DNA of 54,731 bases, taken from an uncultured Mycobacteriaceae bacterium. Lineage in GTDB: Bacteria; Actinomycetota; Actinomycetes; Mycobacteriales; Mycobacteriaceae. The stretch covers positions 1 to 54,731 of the forward strand of contig CADEGF010000036.1 of the NCBI GenBank assembly GCA_902826815.1, in the 5' to 3' direction. The notes beneath the pieces were generated by a model. It was given only the letters and a program-made list of their open reading frames with translations. It did no database searches and was not told where the DNA came from. Below, one piece after another: positions 38,998 through 54,668 of the stretch. The translations under genes were made by a program, and so were the position numbers. Position 1 is the first letter of the stretch; each line of letters begins with the position of its first letter.

Positions 38998-39327
38998 ATG
39001 CACGAAATGGCGATCACGCAGAGTGTTGTCGACGCGGTATGTGAACATGCCGCGGGTCGTCGCGTGCACAGCGTCAAGGTCGAGGTCGGCGAGCTGTGCG
39101 CCTTGGTCCCCAACTCCATGCAGTTCTGCTTCGAACTGGCCACCCAGGGCACGGTCGCCGACGGGGCCCTCCTCGATCTCGATGTCAGGCCGGGCGCAGC
39201 GCGCTGCCGCGGCTGTCAACAGGAGTTCGAATTGCACGACCTGATCCTGTTGTGTCCGTGCGGAAGTGCCGATATCGACGTGCTGGCGGGCCGCGACCTG
39301 CGAATCCTCTCGATGGAAGTGAGCTGA
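38998..39327 (+). CDS. hypA: Hydrogenase nickel metallochaperone HypA
   Basis: Brings Ni(II) to the hydrogenase large subunit with HypB. It has 109 residues; ATG 38998 gives the Ni-binding N-terminus MHEMAITQSVVDAV. The zinc site is CRGC and, later, a CPC-type motif (LLCPCGSADID) in which the second pair is closer than the usual CxxC; this form is also seen in related actinobacterial HypA as far as I recall. It is the first gene of the hydrogenase cluster, divergent from recA, and lies three bases before hypB. Confidence 0.93.
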   Translation: MHEMAITQSVVDAVCEHAAGRRVHSVKVEVGELCALVPNSMQFCFELATQGTVADGALLDLDVRPGAARCRGCQQEFELHDLILLCPCGSADIDVLAGRDLRILSMEVS

Positions 39328-39329
39328 CC

Positions 39330-40142
39330 ATGTGCGCGACATGCGGATGCGGCGACGACGGCGCCGTCATCACCGTTGCAGGCGACCACCAGCACGAACA
39401 CGAACATCAAAACCACCACCACGACGGCCACACCCACACCGAGACCGTCTCGCTGGAGCAGAAGGTTCTGCAGAAGAACGATCTACTCGCCGAGCAGAAC
39501 CGGCAGTGGCTCGCCGAGCGTGACGTCCTCGCACTCAACGTCACCAGCTCACCGGGGGCGGGCAAGACGACCCTTCTAGAGCGCACCATCCGCGAGTTGA
39601 CGGCCGACCGGCCGGTCGCCGTCATCGAAGGCGATCAGGAGACCTTGCTCGACGCCGAACGAATCCGCGCCGCGGGCGCGCGGGCGGTCCAGATCAACAC
39701 CGGCGCCGGCTGCCACCTCGACGCTGACATGATTCACCGAGCCCTTCACGCGCTCGAACCGGAATCGGGGTCACTGCTGTTCATCGAGAACGTCGGCAAT
39801 CTGGTCTGCCCGGCGCTATTCGATCTCGGCGAGCACAGCAAAGTGGTGGTGATCTCGGTGACCGAGGGCGCGGACAAGCCGCTCAAGTACCCGCATATGT
39901 TTGCCGCAGCCGGGCTCGTCATCATCAACAAGATCGATCTGCTGCCGTACGTCGACTTCGATCTTGAAAAGTGCGCCGGCTACGCCCGCTCGGTTAACCC
40001 AGGCGTCAGCATCTTGCCGTTGTCCGCCACCACGGGTGAGGGTGTTCCCCAATGGTACGAATGGGTCGCTTCGCAGGCAGACGCAACGGCAAACATATGC
40101 ATGTCGTTAGATTCCGTTGACAAGACATACGGGCCGGAGTAA
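39330..40142 (+). CDS. hypB: Hydrogenase nickel-insertion GTPase HypB
   Basis: GTPase that drives nickel insertion, 270 residues from ATG 39330. The N-terminus has the high-affinity Ni motif MCATCGCG, then a His-rich stretch (HQHEHEHQNHHHDGHTH) that may store Ni. The G domain has P-loop SSPGAGKTTLLERTI, EGDQETLLDAERI, the metal-site GAGCHLDADMI, IENVGNLVCPALFDLGE and G4 NKIDLLPYV. It is between hypA and the hydrogenase subunit genes. The 87 bases downstream of its stop hold a G/C palindrome (40205-40217) before hhyS. Confidence 0.95.
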   Translation: MCATCGCGDDGAVITVAGDHQHEHEHQNHHHDGHTHTETVSLEQKVLQKNDLLAEQNRQWLAERDVLALNVTSSPGAGKTTLLERTIRELTADRPVAVIEGDQETLLDAERIRAAGARAVQINTGAGCHLDADMIHRALHALEPESGSLLFIENVGNLVCPALFDLGEHSKVVVISVTEGADKPLKYPHMFAAAGLVIINKIDLLPYVDFDLEKCAGYARSVNPGVSILPLSATTGEGVPQWYEWVASQADATANICMSLDSVDKTYGPE

Positions 40143-40229
40143 ACCGAGAATCAGCGCTCCGACATGTGGGTGCAAACGTCCGGTGTGACGATGGGGGCTC
40201 CCAGCCCGGGTCCCGGGAAGCTGTGACAT

Positions 40230-41285
40230 ATGCCAACTGAGGCAGCAGTCAAAGCGGAAGAAGCATTGATCCATGTGCTGTGGATCAATGCGGGGTTGAG
40301 TTGTGACGGTGATTCCGTGGCGCTGACTGCCGCCACACAACCCAGTGTCGAAGAGATCGCCCTTGGCGCGCTCCCCGGCCTGCCGAAAGTCGCCGTGCAC
40401 TGGCCCCTGATCGATTTCGAGTGCGGACCAAACGGGGGGGCCGACGACTTCCTCGAATGGTTCTTCAAGGGCGAGCGGGGAGAGTTGGACCCGTTCGTGC
40501 TGGTCGTCGAGGGTTCCATCCCGAACGAACAGCTGCACGACGAAGGCTACTGGTGCGGGTTCGGAAATGATCCTGCGACCGGACAGCCGATGACGACGAG
40601 CGAATGGGTGGACCGGCTCGCGCCTAAGGCCACCGCGATCGTAGCGGTCGGAACCTGCGCGACCTACGGCGGAATCCACGCGATGGCGGGCAACCCGACC
40701 GGAGCCATGGGTGTGCCCGATTATCTGGGATGGGACTGGAAGAGCAAGGCGGGCATACCGATAGTCTGCGTGCCCGGCTGCCCGATCCAACCGGACAATC
40801 TGGCCGAGACGCTCACCTATCTGCTCTACATGGCCACCGACCAGGCGCCGATGATCCCGCTCGACGATGCCCTGCGGCCCAAGTGGCTGTTCGGCGCGAC
40901 CGTGCACGAGGGCTGCGACCGGGCCGGGTATTACGAGCAAGGCGATTTCGCGACCGAGTACGGATCGCCGAAATGCATTGTCAAGCTCGGCTGTTGGGGA
41001 CCCGTCGTGAAGTGCAATGTGCCCAAGCGCGGATGGATCAACGGCGTCGGTGGGTGCCCGAACGTCGGCGGAATCTGCATCGGCTGCACGATGCCCGGCT
41101 TCCCGGACAAGTTCATGCCGTTCATGGACGAGCCGCCGGGCGGGACGCTTTCGTCGACAGCGTCGGGACTCTACGGGTCGTTGATCCGTCCCCTGCGTGC
41201 GATCACCGGGCGCACTCTCGACAAAGAACCGAAGTGGCGGCACCCCGGTAAGAAACTCACCACCGGAGCGACTCGCACCTGGTAA
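40230..41285 (+). CDS. hhyS: Group 1h [NiFe]-hydrogenase small subunit
   Basis: Electron-transfer subunit with three iron-sulfur clusters, 351 residues, ATG 40230 with GGGAAG upstream. The proximal site has GLSCDGDS (Cys25, then Asp28 in place of the usual Cys), GTCATYGG (Cys143) and CVPGCPIQPDN (Cys184). This three-Cys/one-Asp set is characteristic of the actinobacterial group 1h (formerly group 5) enzymes and is linked to oxygen insensitivity. The medial and distal sites use HEGCDRAGYY, KLGCWGPVVKCN and GGCPNVGGICIGCTMPGFPD. No Tat signal precedes the protein, unlike other group 1 hydrogenases, which fits a cytoplasmic-side enzyme. The gene name follows M. smegmatis Hhy. Confidence 0.93.
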   Translation: MPTEAAVKAEEALIHVLWINAGLSCDGDSVALTAATQPSVEEIALGALPGLPKVAVHWPLIDFECGPNGGADDFLEWFFKGERGELDPFVLVVEGSIPNEQLHDEGYWCGFGNDPATGQPMTTSEWVDRLAPKATAIVAVGTCATYGGIHAMAGNPTGAMGVPDYLGWDWKSKAGIPIVCVPGCPIQPDNLAETLTYLLYMATDQAPMIPLDDALRPKWLFGATVHEGCDRAGYYEQGDFATEYGSPKCIVKLGCWGPVVKCNVPKRGWINGVGGCPNVGGICIGCTMPGFPDKFMPFMDEPPGGTLSSTASGLYGSLIRPLRAITGRTLDKEPKWRHPGKKLTTGATRTW

Positions 41286-41379
41286 GTGCGGGTCCCCCGG
41301 CGCGCACGGCGGGCGATTGCCCGGTTTCGGCGAAATGCCCTGTGGCGCAGTGGACCACACATATGAAAGAGACATTCCG

Positions 41380-43176
41380 ATGACAACGACCATCCCCGAC
41401 CCGTCACACGTCAAGCGCGAGCCCGGCCAGCTTGTCGAGATGGCGTGGGACCCGATCACGCGAATTGTCGGCAGCCTGGGCATCTACACCAAGATCGACT
41501 TCGAGAACAGAGAAGTGGTCGAATGCCACAGCACGTCGTCGATCTTCCGCGGCTACTCGATCTTCATGAAGGGCAAAGATCCTCGCGACGCGCACTTCAT
41601 CACCAGCCGCATCTGCGGAATCTGCGGCGACAACCACGCCACCTGCTCCTGCTACTGCCAGAACATGGCATACGGTGTGCGGCCGCCGCACCTCGGCGAG
41701 TGGATCGTCAATCTCGGCGAGGCCGCGGAATACATGTTTGACCACAACATCTTTCAGGAGAACCTGGTCGGCGTGGACTACTGCGAGAAGATGGTTTCGG
41801 AGACCAACCCCAGTGTGCTCGCCAAGGCGGAAAACACGCAGGCACCCAACGCCGAGGCACACGGGTACCGCACCATCGCCGACATCATGCGGGCGCTCAA
41901 TCCTTTCACAGGTGAGTTCTATCGGGAGGCGCTCCAGGTCAGCCGGTGGACGCGGGAGATGTTCTGCCTCATGGAAGGTCGGCACGTGCACCCCTCCACG
42001 CTGTACCCCGGCGGCGTCGGCACCACGGCCACCATCCAGTTGATGACGGACTACATCACCCGGCTGATGCGCTACGTCGAGTTCATGAAAGCGGTCGTGC
42101 CGATGCACGACGATCTGTTCGACTTCTTCTACGAAGCGCTACCCGGCTACGAGGAGGTCGGCTTACGCCGCACCCTGCTCGGCTGCTGGGGCTCCTTCCA
42201 GGACCCCGAGGTTTGCAACTTCGACTACAAGGACATGGAGGCGTGGGGCAACGCCATGTTCGTCACGCCCGGCGTGGTGATCGACGGCAAGCTGCACACC
42301 CACTCGCTGGTGGACATCAACCTCGGCATCCGGATCCTGCTCGGCCATTCGTACTACGACGACTGGTCCGACCAGGAGATGTTCGTAAAGACCGACCCGC
42401 TCGGCAACCCGGTGGACCGGCGGCACCCGTGGAACCAGCACACCAACCCGCGTCCGCAGAAGCGGGACTTCGATTCCAACTACAGCTGGGTGATGTCTCC
42501 ACGCTGGTTCGACGGCAAGGATCACCTGGCACTCGATACCGGGGGCGGGCCCCTTGCCCGGCTGTGGTCCACGGCGCTGGCCGGCCTCGTCGACATCGGC
42601 TACGTCAAGGCCACCGGCTCCAGCGTGCAGATCAATTTGCCGAAAACCGCGCTCAAGGGCCCGGTTTCGCTGGAGTGGAAGGTGCCGCAGTACGGCAGCA
42701 ACACGATCGAGCGCAACCGCGCCCGCACGTACTTTCAGGCGTATGCGGCCGCATGCGCACTGCATTTCGCCGAGAAGGCGCTCGTCGAGATCCGCGCAGG
42801 CCGCACGAAGACGTGGGAGAAGTTCGACGTACCCAAAGAAGGCATCGGCTGCGGGTTCACCGAGGCGGTCCGCGGCGTGCTCAGCCACCATATGGTGATC
42901 CGCGACGGCAAGATCGCGAACTACCATCCGTATCCGCCGACGCCGTGGAACGCGAACCCTCGCGACAGTTACGGCACACCGGGCCCCTACGAGGATGCTG
43001 TGCAGGGGCAGCCGATCTTCGAGGAGAACGATCGGGAGCACTTCAAGGGCATCGACATCATGCGCACGGTGCGCAGTTTCGATCCGTGCCTGCCCTGCGG
43101 CGTGCACATGTACCTCGGTAAGGGGAAGACACTCGAGAGGTTGCACTCCCCGACCCAGTCCGTCACCGGGGAATGA
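41380..43176 (+). CDS. hhyL: Group 1h [NiFe]-hydrogenase large subunit
   Basis: Catalytic subunit that oxidises H2, 598 residues from ATG 41380 (GAAAGAGA upstream). The Ni-Fe ligands are the first pair in RICGICGDNH (Cys79, Cys82) and the second in DPCLPCGVH (Cys570, Cys573). After His576 there is a 22-residue tail (MYLGKGKTLERLHSPTQSV..) expected to be removed by the maturation protease encoded at 46905-47399 after Ni is inserted. The sequence around GDNHATCSC is typical of group 1h. It is the second subunit after hhyS with 94 bases between, where a weak ribosome site is the only feature I see. Likely function: scavenging of low H2 as energy source. Confidence 0.95.
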   Translation: MTTTIPDPSHVKREPGQLVEMAWDPITRIVGSLGIYTKIDFENREVVECHSTSSIFRGYSIFMKGKDPRDAHFITSRICGICGDNHATCSCYCQNMAYGVRPPHLGEWIVNLGEAAEYMFDHNIFQENLVGVDYCEKMVSETNPSVLAKAENTQAPNAEAHGYRTIADIMRALNPFTGEFYREALQVSRWTREMFCLMEGRHVHPSTLYPGGVGTTATIQLMTDYITRLMRYVEFMKAVVPMHDDLFDFFYEALPGYEEVGLRRTLLGCWGSFQDPEVCNFDYKDMEAWGNAMFVTPGVVIDGKLHTHSLVDINLGIRILLGHSYYDDWSDQEMFVKTDPLGNPVDRRHPWNQHTNPRPQKRDFDSNYSWVMSPRWFDGKDHLALDTGGGPLARLWSTALAGLVDIGYVKATGSSVQINLPKTALKGPVSLEWKVPQYGSNTIERNRARTYFQAYAAACALHFAEKALVEIRAGRTKTWEKFDVPKEGIGCGFTEAVRGVLSHHMVIRDGKIANYHPYPPTPWNANPRDSYGTPGPYEDAVQGQPIFEENDREHFKGIDIMRTVRSFDPCLPCGVHMYLGKGKTLERLHSPTQSVTGE

Positions 43177-43179: not shown

Positions 43180-44109
43180 ATGCCGCATCGCCCGGACGAC
43201 CCTGATCAAGACGCACAGTTGCGCACGGCGGGCGAGCGGATACAGAACCTCCTCGACGCCAGCGCGGCAGGCGGCGCCGTCGCGCACGAGCGTGCTGAGC
43301 AGTTGGTCCGTGAAGTGGCCGATCTCTACGGCGCGGGCCTCGAACGGATGATGGCCATGGCCGTCGAGGCACAGCCCGATCTCGCGGACGGGTTCGCCGC
43401 CGACGACCTGATCGCCAGCCTGCTGCTGGTGCACGGGTTACACCCGCACGGCGTCGAGCGCCGGGTCGAGGACGCGTTGAACAGCGTGCGGCCTTACCTC
43501 GGGTCACACGGCGGCGATGTTCATCTGCTCGACGTCGACGGCGCAGTGGTTCGGCTGCAGTTCGCGGGCAGCTGCAAGAGCTGCCCGTCGTCGTCGGTCA
43601 CCCTCGAGCTGGCCGTCGAAGACGCGGTGCGCGCTGCGGCGCCCGAGATTTCGTCGATCGAGGTGGTGGCCGCCGAAGCAGACGCAAAGGCCCCGGTTAT
43701 TCCGGTGGACAGCCTGATGAACCGCGTGCGCACGCAGCCACCGGGGCACGACTGGTATCCGGTGCCCGGCGTCGCCGACCTCGCCCCGGGAGAGGTCGGC
43801 GGGTTCGTTGTCGCAGGCATGGCGGTGCTGGCGTGCCGACTCGACGACCGGTTGTTCGCGTACCGGGACCGCTGCGGCGCCTGCGGTGAGTCGCTCGCCG
43901 GTGCGGCGCTGCATCGTCGGCTCGGCTCGGCCAACGCCGTACTGCGGTGCCCGAACTGCCGTGCGCATTTCGACGTTGTGCACGCGGGCGCCTGCGTCGA
44001 CGAAAGCAGTGCGTTTCCTGGGAACGACGGAGCCCATCTCGAACCGGTACCGCTGTTGGAACGCGACGGGGTGCTGTCGATGGCGGTCGCCGAGGCGGTC
44101 GAAGCATGA
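43180..44109 (+). CDS. NifU-domain / Rieske-like fusion protein, candidate electron-transfer partner
   Basis: A 309-residue fusion, three bases after hhyL. Residues 1-90 are helical, 95-165 are a NifU C-terminal domain with SCKSCPSS (Cys132, Cys135) that can hold an iron-sulfur cluster, and 185-270 a Rieske-like fold (VAGMAVLACRLDDRLFAYRDRCGACGESL..VLRCPNCRAHFDV). The Rieske Cys-x-His pairs are here CxxC (232/235) and CxxC (257/260), so the ligand set is four Cys, as in zinc or rubredoxin sites, not a normal [2Fe-2S] Rieske. The position directly after the subunits suggests it passes electrons or helps cluster assembly (an HhyE-type role, by analogy). Its TGA stop overlaps the first copy of an ATGA junction. 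Confidence 0.82.
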   Translation: MPHRPDDPDQDAQLRTAGERIQNLLDASAAGGAVAHERAEQLVREVADLYGAGLERMMAMAVEAQPDLADGFAADDLIASLLLVHGLHPHGVERRVEDALNSVRPYLGSHGGDVHLLDVDGAVVRLQFAGSCKSCPSSSVTLELAVEDAVRAAAPEISSIEVVAAEADAKAPVIPVDSLMNRVRTQPPGHDWYPVPGVADLAPGEVGGFVVAGMAVLACRLDDRLFAYRDRCGACGESLAGAALHRRLGSANAVLRCPNCRAHFDVVHAGACVDESSAFPGNDGAHLEPVPLLERDGVLSMAVAEAVEA

Positions 44110-44191
44110 CTTCCCGAAGGCGAGCGCGAGTGAGGATCGCAGCGAGGCACGAGCGAGGACCGGAGCGAGCGGGAGCCGAGGCATGACTTCC
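44104..44191. repeat. 77-bp insertion with 11-base direct repeat
   Basis: GCATGACTTCC occurs at 44104-44114 and again at 44181-44191. Between them are 66 bases of (GAGCGA)-rich sequence. The arrangement looks like an insertion that duplicated the stop/start junction between the NifU/Rieske gene and the next gene. Deleting 77 bases restores a plain ATGA overlap. Confidence 0.75.
44106..44186 (+). CDS. Possible 26-residue minicistron made by the insertion
   Basis: ATG 44106 overlaps the NifU/Rieske stop (ATGA), and this frame ends in TGA at 44184-44186, overlapping the next ATG at 44183 in the same way. The peptide is Arg-rich (MTSRRRARVRIAARHERG..). It may do nothing but keep ribosomes passing from one gene to the next. 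Confidence 0.35.
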   Translation: MTSRRRARVRIAARHERGPERAGAEA

Positions 44192-44815
44192 GCGTACGAC
44201 GTTCTGGCGCGCATCCGCGCCGCACCGACGTCGCCGCAGCCCGTAGGCGAACGCTGCGAAATGTGTTCGGAGGCGATCGCCGACGAGCACCAGCACGTGG
44301 TGAACGTCGAAGGCAGGCAGTTGATGTGTGTCTGCCGAGGGTGCTATCTGCTGTTCACCGACAACCAGGCCAAGCTGCGCTACCGCGCCGTCCCGGACCG
44401 CTATCTGGCTTTCCCGGACTTCGCCCTGGACCGGCGGCACTGGGAGGTCCTGCAGATACCCGTTGGGCTCGCGTTCTTCTTCAGGAACTCGGCGCTGGAC
44501 CGGACAGTGGCGTTCTACCCCGGGCCGGCAGGCGCGACGGAATCCGAGCTCGACCTCGAAGCCTGGAACGACATTCGCGAAGCCGACCCGAGGGTCGACC
44601 TGCTTGCCGACGACACGGAGGCGCTGATCGTGCGGGTGCCCGAGGACGACCAGCAACCACCCGAATGCCACCTGGTACCGATCGACGCCTGCTATGAGCT
44701 TGTCGGGCGACTTCGAATGCTGTGGCGCGGGTTCGACGGCGGCCAGCATGTGCGCCAGTTCGTCGACGAATTCTTCGAAAACGTTGCGGCCCGCGGCAAG
44801 GCGGTGCTGCCGTGA
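44183..44815 (+). CDS. DUF5947 family protein, hydrogenase-associated
   Basis: A 210-residue soluble protein of the DUF5947 family, which is found next to actinobacterial hydrogenases. Cysteines in GERCEMCSEAIADEHQHVVNVEGRQLMCVCRGCYLLF (residues 22-60) make a likely metal or cluster site with CxxC, CxC and CxxC spacing. Later segments are RYLAFPDFALDRRHWEVLQIPVGLAFFF and DACYELVGRLRMLWRGFDGG. The role is unknown; a chaperone or iron-sulfur handling function for the hydrogenase is an inference. ATG 44183. Stop overlaps the next gene by four bases. Confidence 0.75.
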   Translation: MTSAYDVLARIRAAPTSPQPVGERCEMCSEAIADEHQHVVNVEGRQLMCVCRGCYLLFTDNQAKLRYRAVPDRYLAFPDFALDRRHWEVLQIPVGLAFFFRNSALDRTVAFYPGPAGATESELDLEAWNDIREADPRVDLLADDTEALIVRVPEDDQQPPECHLVPIDACYELVGRLRMLWRGFDGGQHVRQFVDEFFENVAARGKAVLP

Positions 44816-45456
44816 GCGAGGTGACGTTCGCCGTGCTCGAAGTGGCGCCGGAACGATATGCGGTGACACCGGTGCTGACCGCCCGGGTCGGGATCGCGGC
44901 GGACGGCGACGAACCGGTGCATGCCATCGCGCTGCGGTGCCAGGTCCGTATCGAACCCCTGCGACGCGGTTACAGCGACGACGAAGCCGCGGGACTCCTC
45001 GATCTGTTCGGACCTCGCGAACGCTGGGGCCGGACCCAACACAATTTCCTTTGGCTGCACACCACCGCGATGGTGCAGGGGTTCACCGGCACGACCCAGG
45101 TGGAACTGCCGCTGGAGTGCACGTACGACTTCGAGGTGACAGCGTCCAAGTATTTCCACGCACTTCGGGTTGGAAATATTCCGTTGCAATTCCTCTTCAG
45201 TGGAACAGTTTTCGCCAAAGGCGAGCGAAACTTCTCGGTGCAGCAAGTGCCGTGGGACCGCGAAGACCACTACGACCTACCGGTGTCGACGTGGCGTGAT
45301 CTCATGCAGCTGCACTACCCGAATACCGGTTGGCTGCGCCTCAACCGCGACACTCTCGAGGCGCTGTCGGCGTTCAAATCGGCACGTGGCCTACTCGGAT
45401 ATGACGACGCCATCACCTCGCTGGTGGCTGAGCACACGGCGCAGGAAATCCGATGA
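44812..45456 (+). CDS. DUF6084 family protein, hydrogenase-associated
   Basis: A 214-residue protein, GTG 44812 overlapping the previous stop (GTGA). It is beta-rich at first (VTFAVLEVAPERYAVTPVLTARVGIA, ALRCQVRIEPLRRGY), then has conserved aromatic segments ERWGRTQHNFLWLHTTAMVQGF, YDFEVTASKYFHALRVGNIPLQFLFSGTVF and VPWDREDHYDLPVSTWRDLMQLHYPNTGWLRL. There are few Cys, so metal binding is unlikely. The family name is given from memory of actinobacterial hydrogenase clusters. Function unknown. Overlaps the next gene by four bases (ATGA). Confidence 0.72.
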   Translation: MSEVTFAVLEVAPERYAVTPVLTARVGIAADGDEPVHAIALRCQVRIEPLRRGYSDDEAAGLLDLFGPRERWGRTQHNFLWLHTTAMVQGFTGTTQVELPLECTYDFEVTASKYFHALRVGNIPLQFLFSGTVFAKGERNFSVQQVPWDREDHYDLPVSTWRDLMQLHYPNTGWLRLNRDTLEALSAFKSARGLLGYDDAITSLVAEHTAQEIR

Positions 45457-46793
45457 GCGGCTGGGACCGGGCCCGCACCATCGCCGACGCGGTGCTCTAC
45501 GAGGGCTACCTGCTGTACCCGTACCGCGCCAACTCCAGTAAGAACCAGACGCGCTGGCAGTTCGGTGTGCTCGGCCCCGCGGGCGCCGCCGACGCCGGGA
45601 TCGGCGAGGACGACTCGCTGTCGGTGCAGGTCATCATCGCGCCGAGGGATCAGCCAAGAGTGTCTGTGGTGGTGCGCTTCCTGCAGTTGCAGCACCGGGG
45701 CGTCGAGAAGGAATGCGGTGACGGCCGATTCGAACCGGTCGACGAACTGGTATCGGGCACACAAGCGTGGCTGCGCTGGGACGAGGCCGTCGAACGCGAG
45801 ATCTCGTTCGGGCCATTCGACACCGAATCGGGTATGGCGCAGACACTTCCGATCGAGGTGGGCGCAGGCACCGACGTCGAAACGGTCGAGGGCGGCAGGC
45901 TGGTCCGCACCCGCCGCGCATTGCACGCACAGTTGGTGATCACCGCGGACCGCGACGATGAATTCGTCCGCCTGACGATGGTGGTCCGCAACACGGCGGC
46001 GCCCGTCGACAACAAGGACGACGCCATCGCCGTTTCGCTGATCGGCACCCACCTCGTCGCCGAGGTCGTCGACGGCGACTTCGTGTCGCTTCTCGAACCA
46101 CCGGCATCGGCCGACAGCGCCGTCGCCCGATGCCGGCACCACCGCTGCTTCCCCGTGCTGGCCGGACCGGCAGGCGATCACGCTCTGATGCTGGTGTCGC
46201 CGATCATCCTGTACGACCACCCGGAGATCGCCGAGCAGAGCGAGGGTGCGCTGTACGACTCGACGGAGATCGATGAGATCCTCACGCTGCGCGTCATGAC
46301 GATGACCGACGAGGAGAAGGCGGCGGCCAGGGCCACCGACCCACTCGCCGCGCGGATCATCGACCGCTGCGACTCGATGTCCCCCGAGGCGATGCTCAAC
46401 CTGCACGGCGTGCTGCGTAATCCGCACGCCGCCGACGACCCTGCAGGCCTGATCCCGGAGATACCTGAGGGTGTCGACTGGTGGGATCCGGTGGCCGACA
46501 ACGCCGTGGCTCCCGGTATTGACGCCGTCCTGGTGAACGGTGTGCGGGTGAACCGCGGCAGTCGGGTGCGCTTGCACCCGTCACGACGAGCCGACGCCCA
46601 GGACCTGTTCTTCGCCGACAGGATCGCAAAGGTCACCTCGGTGCACGAGACAGTCGACGGAGACCAGCACGTCGGCGTCGTCCTCGAGGACGACCCGGCC
46701 GCCGACCTGCACGAGTGGTATGGCCGCTACCTGTACTTCGCGCCCGATGAGGTCGAACCGTTGAGTGAAAGGAATCCGACATGCAAGCAGTAG
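45453..46793 (+). CDS. Hydrogenase-cluster protein of unknown function (446 residues)
   Basis: ATG 45453 lies in an ATGA overlap with the previous stop. The 446-residue protein has no family I can name. It starts ARTIADAVLYEGYLLYPYRANSSKNQTRWQFGVLGP and continues with a beta-rich middle (VSVVVRFLQLQHRGVEKEC, HAQLVITADRDDEFVRLTMVVRNTA, IAVSLIGTHLVAEVVDGDFVSLLEPP), then RHHRCFPVLAGPAGDHALMLVSPIILYDHPEIAEQS, and ends with HPSRRADAQDLFFADRIAKVTSVHETVDGDQHVGVVLEDD. The YEGYLLYPYR..N..RW phrase is a distinctive, probably conserved N-terminal mark. It is in the middle of the accessory block, so it is probably needed for the hydrogenase or its complex. Its end overlaps the small peptide gene by 13 bases. 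Confidence 0.8.
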   Translation: MSGWDRARTIADAVLYEGYLLYPYRANSSKNQTRWQFGVLGPAGAADAGIGEDDSLSVQVIIAPRDQPRVSVVVRFLQLQHRGVEKECGDGRFEPVDELVSGTQAWLRWDEAVEREISFGPFDTESGMAQTLPIEVGAGTDVETVEGGRLVRTRRALHAQLVITADRDDEFVRLTMVVRNTAAPVDNKDDAIAVSLIGTHLVAEVVDGDFVSLLEPPASADSAVARCRHHRCFPVLAGPAGDHALMLVSPIILYDHPEIAEQSEGALYDSTEIDEILTLRVMTMTDEEKAAARATDPLAARIIDRCDSMSPEAMLNLHGVLRNPHAADDPAGLIPEIPEGVDWWDPVADNAVAPGIDAVLVNGVRVNRGSRVRLHPSRRADAQDLFFADRIAKVTSVHETVDGDQHVGVVLEDDPAADLHEWYGRYLYFAPDEVEPLSERNPTCKQ

Positions 46794-47657: not shown

Positions 47658-49942
47658 ACGGGCGGCGCCGGTTGCGAGTTCGCGTGCGCGGAGTCGTGCA
47701 GGGCGTCGGCTTCCGGCCGTTCGTCTACACGCGCGCGGCCTCATCCGCCCTGTCCGGTTCCGTGCGCAACGACAGCACCGGCGCGGTCCTCGAGATCGAG
47801 GGTGATGCAACGGCTCTCGACGACTTTCTGGCGGGCCTCGTGCATAACGCCCCACCACTGGCCCAAATCGAATCCGTGGAAACAAAGGAGATCCCCACCG
47901 TCGGCGGAACCGGCTTCGCGATCGCCGACACGTCGCGAGCCGGCGGTGGCCGAACGCTCGTCTCCGCCGACGTCGCCATGTGCGCCGAATGCGCGGCCGA
48001 ACAACGCGACCCCGCCAATCGTCGCTACCGGCACGCGTTCGTCAACTGCACCAACTGCGGACCGCGCTTCACGATCATCGCGTCGCTGCCCTATGACCGC
48101 GCGAACACCACGATGGCTCCGTTCCCGATGTGCGCGGACTGCACGCGCGAATACCACGATCCGAGCGACCGGCGGTTCCACGCCCAGCCGGTCTGCTGCC
48201 CGAACTGCGGACCGACACTGAACTACCGAGCAACCGACGGTACAGCCACCCACGGCGAATCAGCGCTGCGGCAGGCCCGACGGCTGCTGCGTGACGGCGG
48301 TGTGCTCGCGGTCAAAGGCATCGGTGGATACCACCTGGCCTGCGATGCCGACAACGAGCGCGCGGTCGCCGAATTGCGCACCCGGAAACGCCGCGGCGAC
48401 AAGCCGTTCGCGGTGATGGTGGCCGACCTGACCACCGCGCACCGCATCGCAAACATCGATGCGGCGTCGTCGCAAGTGCTCACCGGCCCGCAGCGGCCAA
48501 TCGTGCTGATGCCCCGGCGGGCGAATGCCCCCGTCGCCGAATCGGTCGCACCGCACAATCCGGATCTCGGTGTGATGCTCGCCTACACCCCCCTGCATGC
48601 CCTCCTGCTGGGACTGTCCACCGAAGAGGCGGGGCCGTCCGTGCTGGTGATGACATCGGGGAACCTCGGTGGCGAACCGATCTGCTTCACCGATGACGAT
48701 GCGCTGGAGCGGCTTTCGCACCTCGCCGACGGCTGGCTGATGCACGACCGGGCGATCCTGGTGCCGTGCGACGACTCGGTGGTGCGAATTGTCGACGATG
48801 TCGACCTGCCCATCCGGCGCTCCCGCGGCTATGCGCCGCTACCGGTGGCGCTTCCCGTGCCCGTTCCGCCGACACTGGCCGTCGGGGGTGATCTGAAGAA
48901 CACGCTGGCGCTCGCAGAACACAGATACGCATGGCTGAGCCAGCACATCGGCGACATGGACGACCTTGCCACGTTGGTCGCGTTCGAATCTGCCGAACAG
49001 CACCTCGAGGCATTGTCCGGCGTCTGCCCGGAAATCGTTGTCGTGGACTCACATCCGGGATACCGGTCCACCGCGTGGGCGGAACGCAATGCCGACGCGC
49101 GGCCGGTTCGAACAGTACAGCACCATCACGCCCACGTCGCCGCGGTGATGGCCGAGAACGGGTTGGATGGGTCGCAGCGCGTCCTCGGCTTCGCGTTCGA
49201 CGGAACTGGTTACGGCGCCGACGGTGCGATCTGGGGCGGCGAGGCCTTGCTCGCCGACTACAAGGGCTATCAGCGGATCGCGTCGCTGAAGTATGTTCCG
49301 GTGGCCGGCGGTGACATCAGCGTGCTGCGGCCCTACCGGATGGCACTGTCGCATCTGTGGGCGGCCGGCCTCGAGTGGGACGAAGACCTCCCGCCGGTGC
49401 GGGCCTGCCCGCCCGACGAGCGACGCGCGCTGCGACACCAGCTCGACACGGGGCTTGGATGCGTCCCCACGTCGAGCATGGGCCGATTGTTCGACGCCGT
49501 CTCTTCGCTGGCAGGCGTCCGTCAGGTGGTGGCATACGAAGCGCAGGCGGCGATCGAGCTGGAGGGCTTGTCGCGCAACGCCGATCACTATGGACCGCGC
49601 TACGCGTTCGGCATCGATGCCAGCAGGCTTCCGATGACGATCGACCCGGGGCCCGTGCTTGCCGCGATCGTCAACGACCAGCGCTGCGCTACCCCGGCGG
49701 GGGTGATCGGCCTGAAATTTCACTGCGCCGTCGCCGATTTGGTCGTAGATCTCGCAGGGATGGAGGGCACCGGCGGCCAGCCGGTCGCATTGTCCGGCGG
49801 GGTGTTCCAGAACGCGTCGCTGCTGCGCCTGGTGCGCAGCGGTCTGAGGGCCAAGGGTTTGCAAGTGATCACCCACCGCCACGTGCCGCCTAACGACGGT
49901 GGCATCGCGCTCGGTCAGCTCATGGTCGGAACGGCGGGCTAA
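47654..49942 (+). CDS. hypF: Carbamoyltransferase HypF
   Basis: Makes the cyanide ligand precursor from carbamoyl phosphate with HypE. It is 762 residues, the normal length. The acylphosphatase domain (VRVRGVVQGVGFRPFVYTRA, with the Arg and Asn of RNDSTG) is first, then two zinc fingers (MCAECAAE..NCTNCGPRF, MCADCTREY..VCCPNCG), the YrdC domain (LRDGGVLAVKGIGGYHLACDADNERAV..RKRRGDKPFAVMV) and the Kae1-like domain with VQHHHAHVAAVMAENGL and LSGGVFQN. Overlaps hypC by four bases and is followed three bases later by a DUF6390 gene. Confidence 0.96.
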   Translation: MNGRRRLRVRVRGVVQGVGFRPFVYTRAASSALSGSVRNDSTGAVLEIEGDATALDDFLAGLVHNAPPLAQIESVETKEIPTVGGTGFAIADTSRAGGGRTLVSADVAMCAECAAEQRDPANRRYRHAFVNCTNCGPRFTIIASLPYDRANTTMAPFPMCADCTREYHDPSDRRFHAQPVCCPNCGPTLNYRATDGTATHGESALRQARRLLRDGGVLAVKGIGGYHLACDADNERAVAELRTRKRRGDKPFAVMVADLTTAHRIANIDAASSQVLTGPQRPIVLMPRRANAPVAESVAPHNPDLGVMLAYTPLHALLLGLSTEEAGPSVLVMTSGNLGGEPICFTDDDALERLSHLADGWLMHDRAILVPCDDSVVRIVDDVDLPIRRSRGYAPLPVALPVPVPPTLAVGGDLKNTLALAEHRYAWLSQHIGDMDDLATLVAFESAEQHLEALSGVCPEIVVVDSHPGYRSTAWAERNADARPVRTVQHHHAHVAAVMAENGLDGSQRVLGFAFDGTGYGADGAIWGGEALLADYKGYQRIASLKYVPVAGGDISVLRPYRMALSHLWAAGLEWDEDLPPVRACPPDERRALRHQLDTGLGCVPTSSMGRLFDAVSSLAGVRQVVAYEAQAAIELEGLSRNADHYGPRYAFGIDASRLPMTIDPGPVLAAIVNDQRCATPAGVIGLKFHCAVADLVVDLAGMEGTGGQPVALSGGVFQNASLLRLVRSGLRAKGLQVITHRHVPPNDGGIALGQLMVGTAG

Positions 49943-49945: not shown

Positions 49946-50698
49946 ATGACCGCACTGTACGAGCAGAAGCTTCCTGCCGGACACGCATTGTTCGCGCGCT
50001 ATGCATTCCCGCCCAACGAGCTGGGCTACTGCGGTCCCGCCGACGCCGACGTGCTGCTGCGTGGCGACAACCCGGCCGAAGTGGCCGCCCACGCCGAGGA
50101 GTTCGACGGGACGTGGCCGTATCTGCGGGCTATCGCCGATGCAACAGGCACGCCGGATGCGTTGGACGCCAGCGTCGTGCGCAGCTACTGGGTCGGCGGA
50201 CCCGACCTGGATCGGGTCGATCCCGTCGCCCTGCTGCAGCGGCTGCGTCGCGCATTCAAGGGGCAGGCGACGGGCCTGCTCGACGACCTCGGCATGCCGC
50301 ACGGCGTTCTGGCCCATCACAGCTTCCATGTTTTCGTGGTGTACCCATGGGTGCGGTTCCTCGACCGTGAGGCGGCGACCGCACTGAAGGTGTTGCAGGA
50401 CTGTCGGATCCGCTGGGGAAGGGTGGAGTCCATCGAAGGTGAGCATGCGGTGATCACGACGCCACCGCTGACATTCGTCGACAATACGCTGGCGCTCGGC
50501 GAGCCGAGGGCCGAGCGCGTCCGGTGGAGCAAGGCCGGGGTCGCCCTGTTCGTGCCGCCGACGCCCGGCGACGTGGTCTCGGCGCATTGGGACTGGGCCT
50601 GCGGCGTTCTTACCGACACCGAGTGCGCGGCGCTCGGCGACGCGACGCGAACCTCCCTCGATCTCGTGAACGCCGCCCGCAACGAGGAGCGAAACTGA
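49946..50698 (+). CDS. DUF6390 family protein, hydrogenase-associated
   Basis: A 250-residue soluble protein beginning KLPAGHALFARYAFPPNELGYCGPADADVLL, with later AYLRAIADATGTPDALDASVVRSYWVGGPDL-like and DDLGMPHGVLAHHSFHVFVVYPWVRFLDREAATALKVLQDCRIRWGRVESI segments. The phrase GYCGP and the HH/H cluster around HHSFH are the most conserved-looking. I recall the name DUF6390 from hydrogenase clusters; no function is known. It ends TGATG, overlapping the next start by one base. Confidence 0.72.
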   Translation: MTALYEQKLPAGHALFARYAFPPNELGYCGPADADVLLRGDNPAEVAAHAEEFDGTWPYLRAIADATGTPDALDASVVRSYWVGGPDLDRVDPVALLQRLRRAFKGQATGLLDDLGMPHGVLAHHSFHVFVVYPWVRFLDREAATALKVLQDCRIRWGRVESIEGEHAVITTPPLTFVDNTLALGEPRAERVRWSKAGVALFVPPTPGDVVSAHWDWACGVLTDTECAALGDATRTSLDLVNAARNEERN

Positions 50699-51447
50699 TG
50701 GCATTCACCACCGAACCGGCCGGGGTTTTCGTCGACACCAATCTGTCCGCGGATTTGGCTGCCGCAGCCCTGGATATGGCCCGGAAATTTCACGATGGCG
50801 CCACGTTATGGGTGATATCACCTCAATGGGAACCGCACGCTCATCACGTCGCGGTCGAGTTCGTGCATCCGGTGATCATGGGTAAACGGGCGCTGCCCTC
50901 GGTGGCGCTTGTCGACCCAGACCCGGTTGCGCAGGCCCGCGTCGCCACCCAGCCCGGCGACCTGCTGGTTGCGGTGGCGTCGGCGGACGAGCCCTCCGTG
51001 GTCGAGGCGATGCGCCGGGCGCCTGCGTGGGGGACGCTGACCCTATGGATCGGCTCCGGGCCGCGCCCGCAGGCCGGGGCCGCGAACCACATCCTGTGGG
51101 TGGACAGCGATGACCCGATGGTGCCTGCCACCGGACGTTTCGTCCTGCTCTATCACCTGCTGTGGGAACTCACCCATGTCTGCTTCGAACACCCCGGCCT
51201 GCTTACGCCCGCCGCAGAAGAATGCACTGATGAGGTCTGCGTGACGTGCAGTGACGAGGGGCGGCTTGCCGAGGTGATCCTCGAGCCCGCAGATCCGCAT
51301 GCACAGGCCCTGGTTCGCACCGCTATGGGTGAGGAATGGGTGGACGTGACTGTGCTTGGCGACGTTGCGCCGAACGATCTGGTGCTGGTGCATGCGGGAA
51401 CGGCGATCGCGCACCTCGACAACGGCGTCGAGGGGGTGAACCGATGA
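50698..51447 (+). CDS. HupF/HypC-domain protein with SIS-like N-terminal half
   Basis: A 249-residue protein, ATG 50698. Residues 1-165 (VFVDTNLSADLAAAALDMARKFHDGATLWVIS.., DLLVAVASADEPSVVEAMRRAPAWGTLTLWIGSG) are like a sugar-isomerase (SIS) fold without the phosphosugar loop. Residues 175-245 (TDEVCVTCSDEGRLAEVILEPADPHAQALVRTAMGEEWVDVTVLGDVAPNDLVLVHAGTAIAHLD) are a degenerate HypC-type OB domain: it has an internal CVTC, not the free N-terminal Cys. It overlaps the GmhA-like gene by four bases. It may be a scaffold or regulator in cyanide/CO ligand delivery; this is inference. Confidence 0.75.
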   Translation: MAFTTEPAGVFVDTNLSADLAAAALDMARKFHDGATLWVISPQWEPHAHHVAVEFVHPVIMGKRALPSVALVDPDPVAQARVATQPGDLLVAVASADEPSVVEAMRRAPAWGTLTLWIGSGPRPQAGAANHILWVDSDDPMVPATGRFVLLYHLLWELTHVCFEHPGLLTPAAEECTDEVCVTCSDEGRLAEVILEPADPHAQALVRTAMGEEWVDVTVLGDVAPNDLVLVHAGTAIAHLDNGVEGVNR

Positions 51448-52133
51448 CGACGCAGGGTAGTGGAAATACCGAGAGCACGGGCTTTCTGTATCCGTTCATC
51501 GAGTCGGAGGAAACCGATGCGGGCAGCCTGCTCGACGACCTGTCCGCCTCAGCACGGGGTAAGGCCGCCGAAAGCGCCCGCTTGCAACGGGAGTCGCTGG
51601 ACGAGTACCGACCAATGCTTAGCGCCGCTGGAATCGAGATGGCCGACAGGTTCCTTCGCGGCGGCCGCCTCTACACACTGGGAAACGGCGGGAGTTCCAC
51701 CGACGCGGCGACGCTGGCCTCGTTGTTCAGTCGCCCCGCGCAAGGGCGCGCCGTGGCGGCGTGGTCCCTGGCCGCGGACGAGGCGGTGGTGACCGCGCTC
51801 GGGAACGACGTCGGCTTCGAGCTCATTTTCAAACGTCAGATCATCGCCCACGCGCGCGAGCGCGACGTCGCCATCGCCCTGTCGACCTCGGGCAACTCTG
51901 AGGACCTGATGTCGGCCATCACCGAGGCGAAGCATCGCGGGTTGCTGACGATCGGGTTCTCCGGTCACGACGGCGGTCGCATGGCGGTGGCCGAGGATCT
52001 CGATCACTGCTTCACGGTGCACAGCCAAAGCATTCACCGCATCCAGGAGAGCCACGCCATGCTCGGCTTCCGGCTCTGGTCGGTAGCGCAGGAACACATG
52101 TCCCGTCCCCGTAATGGAGCGCACACGTCATGA
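51444..52133 (+). CDS. SIS-domain protein (GmhA-like), hydrogenase-associated
   Basis: A 229-residue protein of the phosphoheptose-isomerase (GmhA) class. It has the phosphosugar-binding loop RLYTLGNGGSSTDAATLASLFSRPAQGRAVAAWSLAADEAVVTALGNDVGFELIFKRQI and ALSTSGNSEDLMSAITEAKHRGLLTIGFSG, then RIQESHAMLGFRLW, with the His of the catalytic region. No heptose pathway is present here, so its role in a hydrogenase operon is unclear. It overlaps hypE by four bases. It is also more than a stray gene: the preceding gene seems to be a divergent relative of the same fold. Confidence 0.82.
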   Translation: MTTQGSGNTESTGFLYPFIESEETDAGSLLDDLSASARGKAAESARLQRESLDEYRPMLSAAGIEMADRFLRGGRLYTLGNGGSSTDAATLASLFSRPAQGRAVAAWSLAADEAVVTALGNDVGFELIFKRQIIAHARERDVAIALSTSGNSEDLMSAITEAKHRGLLTIGFSGHDGGRMAVAEDLDHCFTVHSQSIHRIQESHAMLGFRLWSVAQEHMSRPRNGAHTS

Positions 52134-53230
52134 GCACAACCGAGGCAATGACCACCGCCCAACGCGAAGACCGCGTGTTGGAACGGATCGACAAGTTCCG
52201 GCAACGGCGCCCGCGACTTCTCGACGACGTCGTCACGCTCGCGCACGGGGCGGGCGGGAAGTCGTCGGCTGCCCTCGTCGACGCCGTCTTCCTCGACGCC
52301 TTCCGCAATGACGAACTCGAACAGCTCGGTGACGCCGCCGGGCTGCGCACCCCCTCCGGGGACCGGCTCGCGTTCTCCACCGACTCATTTGTCGTTGCGC
52401 CACGGCGGTTTCCGGGCGGTTCGATCGGTCATGTCGCGGTCCACGGGACGATCAACGACCTTGCCGTCTCCGGCGCCCGGCCGCAATGGTTGTCGGCCGC
52501 CTTCGTGATCGAGGAGGGATTCTCGATCACCGAGCTGCGCGAGATCGTCGCCGACATGAGCGAGGCCGCCGCCAAGGCCGGCGTGCAGATCGTCACCGGC
52601 GACACCAAGGTCGTCGGAAAGGGCGCTGCCGACGGTCTGTACATCTCGACCGCCGGCGTCGGCGTGATTCCCAAGGACAGGCGATTGTCGCGGGATCTCG
52701 TGCAGCCCGGCGACAAGGTGCTGTTGTCCGGCACGATCGGCGAACACGGGATGGCGGTGATGCTGGCACGCGGCGACTTGGCAATCGACGCCGAAATCGC
52801 CTCCGACACCGCGCCGGTCCACGAACTGGTTGAGCTGCTGTTGGAGGCTGCGCCATCGACACGGTGGATGCGCGATGCCACGCGCGGCGGTGTCGGAACG
52901 GTGTGCAACGAGCTCGTCAAGGACTCGCCATTCGCACTGGTCCTCGACGAGCAGAGGCTACCGGTGGAGCCGCAGGTGCTCGGCGCGTGCGACATGCTGG
53001 GCATCGACCCGTTGTACGTCGCCAACGAGGGCAAGTTCGTTGCGGTGGTCGCGGCCGAGGAGGCCGACGCCGCCGTCGCCGCAATGCAGACGCACCCCCA
53101 GGGTGCCCGGGCAACGATCGTCGGCGAGGTCATCCCCGAACCGAATGGCATTGTCGCGCTGAGAACTTCGTTCGGAGGCAGCCGAATCGTCGACATGCTC
53201 GTCGGCGACCCACTGCCAAGAATCTGCTGA
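52130..53230 (+). CDS. hypE: Hydrogenase maturation protein HypE
   Basis: ATP-dependent dehydratase that turns HypF's thiocarboxamide into the cyanide ligand. 366 residues; ends PLPRIC with the C-terminal Cys that receives the carbamoyl group. Motifs are VTLAHGAGGKSS, FSTDSFVVAPRRFPGGSIGHVAVHGTINDLAVSGARPQWLSAAFVIEEGF and IVTGDTKVVGKGAADGLYISTAGVG. An extra N-terminal part of about 30 residues precedes VTLAHG. ATG 52130 overlaps the GmhA-like gene (ATGA). Confidence 0.95.
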   Translation: MSTTEAMTTAQREDRVLERIDKFRQRRPRLLDDVVTLAHGAGGKSSAALVDAVFLDAFRNDELEQLGDAAGLRTPSGDRLAFSTDSFVVAPRRFPGGSIGHVAVHGTINDLAVSGARPQWLSAAFVIEEGFSITELREIVADMSEAAAKAGVQIVTGDTKVVGKGAADGLYISTAGVGVIPKDRRLSRDLVQPGDKVLLSGTIGEHGMAVMLARGDLAIDAEIASDTAPVHELVELLLEAAPSTRWMRDATRGGVGTVCNELVKDSPFALVLDEQRLPVEPQVLGACDMLGIDPLYVANEGKFVAVVAAEEADAAVAAMQTHPQGARATIVGEVIPEPNGIVALRTSFGGSRIVDMLVGDPLPRIC

Positions 53231-53257
53231 TGGAGCTATGAGAGAGGAGTTTTGACG

Positions 53258-53530
53258 ATGTGTCTGGGAATCCCCGGTCAGGTGGTCGACATCGTCGACG
53301 CCGAACAGTCACTGGCCAAGGTCGATGTCAACGGCGTCCGCCGAAACATCAGTGTGCGCCTGCTCGCCGACGACAACCTGCAGGTCGGTGACTGGGTGTT
53401 GGTGCACGTCGGGTTCGCGATGGCCAAGATCGACGAACACGAGGCGAAACTGACACTGGATCAAGTGCAGAAAATGGGCGCCGACTACGTCAATGAGATC
53501 CAAGCATTCAACTCGTCCGAAATCGCTTGA
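53258..53530 (+). CDS. hypC: Hydrogenase maturation chaperone HypC (copy 2)
   Basis: A second HypC, 90 residues, with MCLGIPGQVVDIVDAEQSLAKVDVNGVRRNISVRLL and LQVGDWVLVHVGFAMAKIDEHEAKLTL. ATG 53258 follows GAGAGGAG; the frame allows a TTG six bases earlier, but Cys2 is needed, so the ATG is used. It is only about half identical to the first HypC in the cluster by eye. It lies next to hypD, its usual partner. Confidence 0.93.
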   Translation: MCLGIPGQVVDIVDAEQSLAKVDVNGVRRNISVRLLADDNLQVGDWVLVHVGFAMAKIDEHEAKLTLDQVQKMGADYVNEIQAFNSSEIA

Positions 53531-53540
53531 GAGGCTTGAC

Positions 53541-54668
53541 ATGAAATTCGTCGACGAATTCCGGGACCCAGCGGCTGCCCGCGCCCTTGTCAGATCGATC
53601 ACCGAGCTCGCGACGGGTGACGAGTTCAAGTTCATGGAGGTGTGCGGAGGTCACACCCATACCATCTACCGGCACGGAATCGAGCATCTGTTGCCGGAGA
53701 CGGTCGAGTTGGTGCACGGACCGGGTTGTCCGGTGTGCGTGATCCCGATGGGGCGGGTGGACGACGCGATGTGGCTGGCCGAACAGCCCAACATCATCTT
53801 CACCACATTCGGCGACATGATGCGGGTGCCCGGCTCACGGGGCAACCTCATCGAGGCCAAGGCGCGGGGCGCGGACGTGCGCTTCGTCTACTCGCCTCTG
53901 GACGCGCTCAAGGTGGCCATCGACAACCCCGACAAACACATCGTCTTCTTCGCCGTGGGTTTCGAAACGACCGCGCCGTCCACCGCGGTGACGCTGGTCC
54001 GTGCCCGCGCACTCGGCGTGCGCAACTTCAGCATTTTCTGCAATCACGTCACGATCGTTCCGCCGATCAAGGCGATCCTCGAATCACCGGATCTGCGGCT
54101 TTCGGGTTTCCTCGGCCCCGGTCATGTGTCGACCGTGGTCGGCTTGCGACCATACCGTTTCGTGCCCGAGGTGTACGGAAAGCCAATGGTGGTAGCGGGA
54201 TTCGAGCCGCTCGACATCCTCGCGTCGGTGCACATGTTGTTGGCGCAGATCAGGCAGGGACGCTGCGAAGTCGAGAACCAGTACACCCGCGTTGTGCGCG
54301 CGGAGGGCAACACCCAGGCGCTGAAGCTGATGTCCGAGACATTCGAGTTGCGGCCCCATTTCGAGTGGCGCGGCCTGGGTTTCATCTCGCAGAGCGCGTT
54401 GAAGATCCACCGCGACTACAGCGAGTTCGATGCGGAGCTGAGGTTCGACATGCCCGGCGTGCGGGTCGCCGACCCCAAGGCATGTCAGTGCGGAGAAGTC
54501 TTGAAAGGCGTCATCAAGCCGTGGGAGTGCAAGGTTTTCGGCACGGCGTGCACCCCGGAGACACCGATCGGCACCTGCATGGTGTCCCCCGAGGGCGCCT
54601 GCGCCGCCTACTACAACTTCGGCAGGCTTCACCGGGAGACGGCGCAGCTGCTCGGTCAGCGGGGATAG
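53541..54668 (+). CDS. hypD: Hydrogenase maturation protein HypD
   Basis: Scaffold on which the Fe(CN)2CO cofactor is built with HypC and HypE. 375 residues, ATG 53541 (GAGAGG upstream). It has the family motifs MEVCGGHTHTIYRHGIEHLLP, VHGPGCPVCVIPMGRVD (cluster/iron Cys), AVGFETTAPSTAV and, near the end, the cysteine-rich CQCGEVLKGVIKPWECKVFGTACTPETPIGTCMVSPEGACAAYY that binds the [4Fe-4S] cluster. It is the last gene seen; 63 bases follow without a gene. Confidence 0.96.
   Translation: MKFVDEFRDPAAARALVRSITELATGDEFKFMEVCGGHTHTIYRHGIEHLLPETVELVHGPGCPVCVIPMGRVDDAMWLAEQPNIIFTTFGDMMRVPGSRGNLIEAKARGADVRFVYSPLDALKVAIDNPDKHIVFFAVGFETTAPSTAVTLVRARALGVRNFSIFCNHVTIVPPIKAILESPDLRLSGFLGPGHVSTVVGLRPYRFVPEVYGKPMVVAGFEPLDILASVHMLLAQIRQGRCEVENQYTRVVRAEGNTQALKLMSETFELRPHFEWRGLGFISQSALKIHRDYSEFDAELRFDMPGVRVADPKACQCGEVLKGVIKPWECKVFGTACTPETPIGTCMVSPEGACAAYYNFGRLHRETAQLLGQRG

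Follow-up and report, generated by a model that had tools for sequence, protein, structure and literature searches.

A complete group 1h [NiFe]-hydrogenase operon of an uncultured Mycobacteriaceae bacterium with a 1h-bound accessory cassette and a split SIS pair that belongs to the hyp maturation module

The stretch of DNA analysed here (the window, 54,731 nucleotides) is the whole of contig C36 of the 6.87 Mb genome of an uncultured Mycobacteriaceae bacterium. Positions 38998-54668 hold 18 genes, all on the + strand, which form one complete group 1h [NiFe]-hydrogenase (Hhy) operon. Its accessory genes fall into two units that can be told apart, plus a single passenger gene. The first unit (unit A) consists of HhyE, DUF5947, DUF6084, a protein of 446 residues (P446) and DUF6893, and is a cassette that goes with the 1h enzyme. 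The second (unit B) is a pair of SIS-domain proteins, a SIS-HypC fusion and a GmhA-like partner, which belongs to the hyp maturation module and not to the 1h enzyme as such. Operons of this kind are already known; the split SIS pair is their least described part. With modest confidence, we read unit A as an electron-output or assembly cassette and the SIS pair as a split protein that would act at the HypC-HypD step of cofactor assembly, with DUF6390 as an optional gene.

The class of the enzyme follows from its large subunit. HhyL (41380..43176, +) carries the L1 motif TSRICGICGDNH at residue 75 and the L2 motif SFDPCLPCGVH at residue 566, in agreement with the group 1h motifs as printed in PMC5364354. 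It is 71–90% identical to 1h genes on plasmids, with its closest relatives in Mycobacterium and Mycolicibacterium. The small subunit gene hhyS (40230..41285, +) shows 92% identity to a gene of a Mycobacterium intracellulare plasmid and 70% to that of Cupriavidus necator. A preliminary description, made from the letters of the window, had reported a group 1h operon; the motifs confirm this, and the genes that it named are all present on the + strand, its seven accessory genes being eight by its own list. Neighbouring genes overlap at 7 of the 17 junctions, and 12 of 17 overlap or lie at most 4 nucleotides apart (the remaining five gaps are 10, 27, 73, 87 and 94 nucleotides), so that its wording of 'mostly' overlapping start and stop codons was slightly too strong. 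No Rfam family reached its gathering score in the window.

The distribution of the accessory genes was assessed in three samples. The phylum sample comprised 198 evenly drawn genomes, some of them incomplete metagenome-assembled genomes; 24 were 1h-positive (HhyL of at least 66% identity, fragments counted), and six further genomes have only a sister enzyme, 39–44% identical to HhyL. The plasmid sample held 72,556 plasmids, in which P446 and DUF6084 were searched at E 1e-5. For Mycobacteriales, 80 loci were fetched and seven were excluded as too short, leaving 73 that reach 5.2 kb past hhyL; the SIS pair was counted in the 71 loci with 9.9 kb downstream. The hidden Markov models for the Mycobacteriales and locus counts were built from the very loci scored, and the counted genomes are partly related and hence not independent. 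The labels 'Huc', '3b-type' and '1d-like' for neighbouring enzymes were assigned here by gene order and motifs.

DUF5947, DUF6084 and P446 are bound almost strictly to group 1h across phyla. P446 and DUF5947 were each found in 22 of the 24 1h genomes and DUF6084 in 21, and none of the three occurred in the six genomes with the sister enzyme only. Each was present in one genome outside the 1h set, G189, where the block lies at the extreme end of a contig (L183) that stops just past DUF5947. Among the genomes that lack one or more of the three, G184 has a fragmented assembly and the contig of G042 ends inside DUF6084; G128 and G171 have P446 and DUF5947, with DUF6084 absent. HhyL of at least 71% identity was found in 12 plasmids, every other plasmid match being below 60%. 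P446 occurred in exactly those 12 records (C. necator and Methylocystis among them) and DUF6084 in 10 of them, and neither was detected in any other plasmid at the threshold used. The 1h core was present in 73/73 Mycobacteriales loci and DUF6893 in 72/73, an association above chance. One pattern scan of viral contigs returned no relatives of P446.

Several individual loci bear on unit A. In G150 a decaying 1h locus (L174:4922-14125) has hhyS and P446 as remnants, and hhyL, DUF5947 and DUF6084 were not found there; it still holds hypA, hypB, the protease, hypF, the SIS pair, hypE, one hypC and hypD, and units A and B decay separately in this genome. A single stop-free frame in G042 (L131:9133-10824) spans HhyE and DUF6084, perhaps as a natural fusion, and DUF5947 was not found in this genome. 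In four genomes (G152, G098, G119 and G087; loci L136-L138 and L184) P446 is split over two frames, a body of ~330 residues and a piece of ~100 residues that matches its SH3-like end, as would fit a protein of two domains. A nuo operon (nuoA onward, nuoL being cut at the end of the stretch) directly follows the Hhy core on the M. intracellulare plasmid (L006:22913-33800); no such operon was found behind the second Hhy operon of the present genome or in the 80 Mycobacteriales loci.

hhyE (43180..44109, +) encodes a NifU domain (PF01106, 75.5 bits) and has CxxC motifs at 132, 232 and 257. The preliminary description had called it a NifU/Rieske fusion; the second half of that name does not hold. 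In the C-terminal domain there are two CxxC motifs (Cys232, Cys257) but no CxH, so that the Rieske ligand set CxH...CxxC/H is absent, and the domain's PF00355 score of 20.9 lies just above the cut-off of 20.3. HhyE proteins are described likewise in PMC6883350. DUF5947 (44183..44815, +; PF19372, 251.6 bits) contains seven Cys/His residues (C25, C28, H36, H38, C49, C51 and C54) that are invariant across 23 diverse aligned sequences, a pattern that would fit a metal or iron-sulphur (FeS) site. The discussion of PMC6883350 proposes MSMEG_2717, a homologue of PHG067, as electron acceptor; judged by gene order, these are probably the DUF5947 homologues. The idea that DUF5947 is the counterpart of HoxR (rubredoxin) or HoxT (HybE chaperone) of group 1d hydrogenases was dropped (hhalign probabilities of 0.6% with HoxR and 0.1% with HoxT of C. 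necator), and tests for a relation of DUF6084 to HoxQ and of P446 to HoxV were likewise negative. DUF6084 (44812..45456, +; PF19562, 317 bits) is predicted to be an Ig/E-set-like beta-sandwich with C-terminal helices (Foldseek; predicted local distance difference test score, pLDDT, of 87). P446 (45453..46793, +; pLDDT 75) matched no Pfam family above cut-off and none in NCBIfam at E 0.01; its model has a beta-rich N-terminal part, and Foldseek matches to PetP and nitrile-hydratase-beta point to an SH3-like C-terminal domain. The top Foldseek match of P446, DrmA (E 1e-6, query TM-score 0.26, root-mean-square deviation 18), is a weak lead only. When profiles of DUF5947, DUF6084 and P446 were run against PDB sequences, no match was better than E 0.2. 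DUF6893 (46781..46900, +; PF21833, 61 bits) is a peptide of 39 residues with one hydrophobic span at about residues 6-24.

On these features, HhyE and the Cys/His-rich DUF5947 would most likely pass electrons from HhyS toward the menaquinone pool, DUF6893 may help to tether the complex at the membrane, and DUF6084 and P446, both beta-sandwich proteins, may act as assembly or structural partners, which makes electron output with membrane-tethered assembly the most likely role of unit A. The one element demonstrated, by others, is the requirement for HhyE in Hhy activity and H2 uptake in Mycobacterium smegmatis (PMC6883350). Two points fit this role poorly: the folds of P446 and DUF6084 have no convincing match (Foldseek query TM-scores of at most ~0.35), and Methylacidiphilum SolV, described in PMC6883350 and PMC7174314 as having neither HhyE nor the hypothetical genes, oxidises sub-atmospheric H2. 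It is also possible, if somewhat less than probable, that the products of unit A are maturation or stability factors for HhyS and HhyL rather than electron carriers, with HhyE and DUF5947 delivering or protecting FeS clusters. The NifU domain of HhyE would suit such a task, no cofactor motif was seen in DUF6084 or P446, and nitroblue tetrazolium fails to compensate for the loss of HhyE in PMC6883350, where assembly is listed as a possibility. In most of the loci compared, however, it is the structural genes and not the hyp genes that the unit A genes adjoin, and HhyL, HhyS and HhyE co-localise on native gels according to the same paper, which calls the interaction not shown.

Judged from alignments, the SIS-HypC fusion (50698..51447, +) and the GmhA-like protein (51444..52133, +) look like a paralogous SIS pair in which the GmhA-type active-site residues have been lost in complementary fashion. 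The N-terminal part of the fusion has no Pfam SIS match, yet an hhalign probability of 97.8% with the SIS protein of C. necator places it in the SIS superfamily. In GmhA the zinc ligands H61, E65 and H183 come from one monomer and Q175 from its neighbour (PMC5387315). Residues were compared in 26 SIS domains, from which the fragments L100, L102, L118, L131 and L135 and other mycobacterial pairs were excluded. The N-type halves keep the equivalents of H61, E65 and H180 in 12/12 cases, and the S55 equivalent and S6 in 0/12; the C-type halves have the four serines in 12/12 and the Q172 equivalent in all 11 with sequence there, and the H61 and E65 equivalents in 0/12. This split of serines versus H and E holds in all halves aligned. 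The fusion of the window has H50, E54 and H153 (invariant in 30 mycobacterial sequences) and a T at the GmhA Q position; its C-type partner keeps S84, S147-S152 and Q201, with T90, L94 and F209 at GmhA metal-ligand positions (S84, S147, S149, S152, Q201 and T90 are invariant in 31 mycobacterial sequences). Each half is therefore incomplete and the pair complete. The single SIS protein of C. necator has every GmhA residue examined, and that of Methylocystis all but one serine. Both domains stand in a single chain, in the same order, in eight distant actinobacterial loci; L129 has them as two genes in that order, and in the sister-clade locus L149 a SIS-HypC fusion precedes another SIS.

Since the Q of GmhA comes from the neighbouring subunit, the two halves should make a composite site only when paired. 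The SIS-HypC fusion would supply the three metal ligands H50, E54 and H153, and the GmhA-like half the phosphate-binding serines and Q201 as fourth ligand, so that the paired halves would form one composite metal and phosphosugar site. The tail of the fusion (C181, C184) is HypC-like and may dock the pair on HypD, and the pair may act at the HypC-HypD step of Fe(CN)2CO assembly.

The two SIS genes occur together and follow the hyp genes. Both SIS genes were present in 36 of the 71 Mycobacteriales loci, neither in 35, and one alone in none. In the phylum sample, where two SIS matches side by side were scored as positive (and G042, with one match, as negative), the pair occurs in 28 genomes, 27 of them with hypD, and in 17 of the 24 1h genomes. 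Hydrogenase-type SIS genes (at least 60% identity) were found in 16 plasmid records, directly beside hypD in all six regions viewed, where the accompanying enzymes are of the 1h, Huc-like and group 1d-like types. hypE (52130..53230, +) and hypD (53541..54668, +; PF01924, 517.7 bits) of the window belong to SIS-associated lineages, and the second hypC (53258..53530, +; PF01455, 92.6 bits) lies between them in the same maturation module. The HypE tree (74 rows) requires one change between SIS and non-SIS loci, with support 99/96, against a mean of 24 for shuffled labels; the HypD tree (45 rows) requires two against 13.8, the exception being L082, a locus that is cut. At 22 sites of HypD, 18 sequences of the SIS type can be distinguished from the 24 others. 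A further module of SIS-HypC, SIS, hypE, hypC and hypD was seen upstream of the Hhy genes in a Mycobacterium locus (L043:3058-7005).

A number of observations weigh against the reading of the SIS pair given above. The pair is dispensable, being absent within 9.9 kb from 35 of the 71 Mycobacteriales loci; one of these, L082, is cut inside hypE where the SIS pair would come next. An approximately unbiased test on the HypD tree rejects one strict SIS clade (p 0.015), because of L082. Loci L157 and L158 were excluded from both trees as long branches, and L158, in which hypC adjoins hypD without SIS genes, fell within the SIS clade in an earlier tree, which speaks for a loss of the pair. Six loci were relabelled as SIS after the first tree, from locus annotation and SIS matches; before relabelling, the changes were 4 (HypE) and 5 (HypD) against 25.3 and 12.3 for shuffled labels. 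As to the residues, 9/12 N-type halves also retain the Q and 9/11 C-type halves the H180 equivalent, so that the Q of the partner is needed only by the mycobacterial pairs and L129, and elsewhere an N-type homomer could hold the metal. Finally, the HypC-like tail scores 25.9 bits against the PF01455 cut-off of 28.5 and 20 against 48 for TIGR00074, with an hhalign probability of 63.5% to the second hypC. Members of the HypC family have a Cys directly after the N-terminal Met; the corresponding Cys of the tail (C181) is internal and follows the SIS domain. Of the SIS/HupF fusion in the preliminary description, the SIS part was borne out, and the HupF/HypC part stays below the family cut-off.

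Other functions of the pair have to be weighed against chemistry at HypC-HypD. SIS domains can bind phosphosugars without catalysis, and the C-type half, without the H and E ligands, also matches DiaA; the pair might thus resemble DiaA in binding a sugar phosphate without catalysis, and serve as a sensor that adjusts HypCD-dependent maturation to carbon or energy status. We regard this as unlikely, though worth keeping in mind: in 12/12 cases the N-type half retains the three metal ligands that one subunit supplies, which would not be expected of a mere sensor. That the GmhA-like gene encodes an ordinary heptose isomerase and is a passenger of the operon appears highly improbable. Its best PDB matches are phosphoheptose isomerases and it matches the NCBIfam equivalog TIGR00441, but with 105 bits against a cut-off of 209.45, and T90 and L94 occupy the positions of the metal ligands H61 and E65; moreover, it never occurred without the SIS-HypC gene in the 71 loci, and it shares its lineage with HypE.

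A more specific version of the composite site, in which the SIS pair is a HypX-independent ligand-supply enzyme whose HypD-docked site would turn a phosphorylated metabolite into CO, or a precursor of it, for Fe(CN)2CO under air, is speculative and in our estimate improbable. HypX is required under oxic conditions (PMC12134894), and it was not found in the present genome at E 1e-40. The HypX searches scored 7 candidates per genome, or up to 27 in the Mycobacteriales comparison, in which SIS status refers to the fetched locus only (L040 and L082 being cut short). HypX was found in 0/20 Mycobacteriales genomes with the SIS pair in the locus and in 4/30 without it; against this version, the other 26 of those 30 have no HypX either. 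The hypD-positive genomes with 1h or sister enzymes also tell against it: 20 have the SIS pair only, three (of one genus) HypX only, one both and three neither (p 0.025, uncorrected for kinship). In its favour, none of the SIS modules in the 16 plasmid records has HypX within 56 kb: nine records have both SIS and HypX modules, 56-88 kb apart, and the other 7 had no HypX at E 1e-60. With 26 of 30 genomes having neither and G086 having both, a simple swap of SIS pair and HypX is not shown, and HypX as a general substitute for the pair is unsupported. Cytochrome oxidase (PF00115) was tried as an aerobe proxy for SIS use in 109 hypD-positive genomes, with a mixed outcome (18/27 SIS-positive and 24/82 SIS-negative genomes). 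On contig C98 of G050, a genome of the same family as the present one, a full-length HypX homologue (62% identity) lies at 165023-166702, and no HypD was found in that genome. To our knowledge, HypD is necessary for all [NiFe]-hydrogenases. A PF01924 search found no HypD in G008 (L126), G025 (L176), G134 (L177), G157 (L178) and G177 (L179), genomes with stated completeness of 92-100%; the hydrogenase of G008 is 1h, and those of the other four are 3b-type with intact Cys motifs.

DUF6390 (49946..50698, +; PF19927, 298.5 bits) is an optional passenger of hydrogenase loci and not a 1h gene. It was found in 14/198 genomes, 8 of them with 1h, and is absent from 16 of the 24 1h genomes. Of its 15 places, 14 were viewed (all except that of G028), and 13 of these lie beside hydrogenase or hyp genes (that of G140 does not); five neighbourhoods are group 3b-type. 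The accessory genes accordingly form three sets, unit A, the SIS pair and DUF6390, and not one system. The preliminary description had taken them as very probably one functional system: for DUF5947, DUF6084 and P446, which follow 1h almost strictly, this was right, and the co-occurrence with hhyL that it had named as a check was found for them, whereas it failed for the SIS pair, which follows the hyp genes, and for DUF6390.

The remaining genes of the operon are those for maturation. They are hypA (38998..39327, +; PF01155, 103.3 bits), encoding a nickel metallochaperone; hypB (39330..40142, +), identified by tblastn matches with the hypB genes on plasmids of C. necator and Methylocystis; a hydrogenase maturation protease (46905..47399, +; TIGR00072, 119.4 bits); the first hypC (47403..47657, +), which belongs to the 1h core and is present in 73/73 Mycobacteriales loci; and hypF (47654..49942, +), with 46% identity to hypF of C. 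necator. A second group 1h operon of the same genome, on contig C48 (L093:6585-15231), has an HhyL 92% identical to that of the window and its own hypA, hypB and unit A. No SIS pair, hypE, hypD or hypF was found within the 20 kb read there, and this operon may draw on the maturation genes that C36 or C54 carries.

The closest described system is the Hhy locus of C. necator pHG1 (group 1h / group 5), which has the same order of small and large subunit, NifU protein, DUF5947, DUF6084, a protein of ~450 residues (476 in C. necator) and protease. It differs in that its SIS protein is single and undivided and its NifU protein shorter (192 residues), whereas the hyp module of the window has the split SIS pair with the HypC fusion, DUF6390 and a second hypC. 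The SIS proteins resemble in sequence GmhA, D-sedoheptulose 7-phosphate isomerase (PDB 5I01, 1tk9), whose residue set is complete in the C. necator relative; in the window these residues are divided between two proteins, and the neighbours are hyp genes. HypX, the CO-forming maturase of aerobic hydrogenases, is likewise an addition to an aerobic hyp module (judged by position, it is the gene after hypE of the membrane-bound hydrogenase cluster in C. necator), but no fold or family relation to the SIS pair was seen. The Huc (group 2a) locus on contig C54 of the present genome has the same module of hypF, SIS-HypC, SIS, hypE, hypC, hypD and DUF6390, as has a Huc-type locus on the M. intracellulare plasmid, with an extra hypC. 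The Huc locus encodes an NHL protein and a HucE whose ligand set is of the Rieske type, and DUF5947, DUF6084 and P446 were not in the stretches read.

Parts of the system have been named or predicted before. In Thermomicrobium, hypothetical genes of the structural operon received the names hhaABC (PMC6776052). An association of GmhA with HypD and HypE was predicted in 2011, its reason being stated as unclear (PMC3231954), and a table of gene neighbours in PMC12727194, by its contents presumably that of [NiFe]-hydrogenase, includes SIS and NifU/Rieske families. The preliminary description was right that the mix of sugar-isomerase, HypC-like, Cys-rich and membrane-peptide proteins lies outside the textbook Hyp pathway; its expectation of undescribed biology applies best to the SIS pair, HhyE being known and required, hhaABC named and the GmhA-HypD-HypE link predicted. 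Among the literature matches listed for SIS or phosphoheptose isomerase with hydrogenase maturation or hypD, no title or abstract describes the split SIS pair, and a search for DUF5947, DUF6084, DUF6390 and DUF6893 gave one match, on aurodox biosynthesis.

A main sink of atmospheric H2 lies in soil bacteria that possess high-affinity hydrogenases, group 1h among them. From a list of unknown genes the analysis derives claims that are open to test. One concerns a cassette bound to the 1h enzyme, with electron output or assembly as its candidate roles; the other concerns a split SIS protein linked to HypC-HypD, with a predicted active site that should be present in the heteromer alone. Should the SIS pair carry out chemistry at HypCD, the pathway that is usually drawn with HypA-F and HypX would have a further dedicated step. 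The findings bear on how the 1h enzyme hands off its electrons and on how the cofactor is assembled under air in the absence of HypX.

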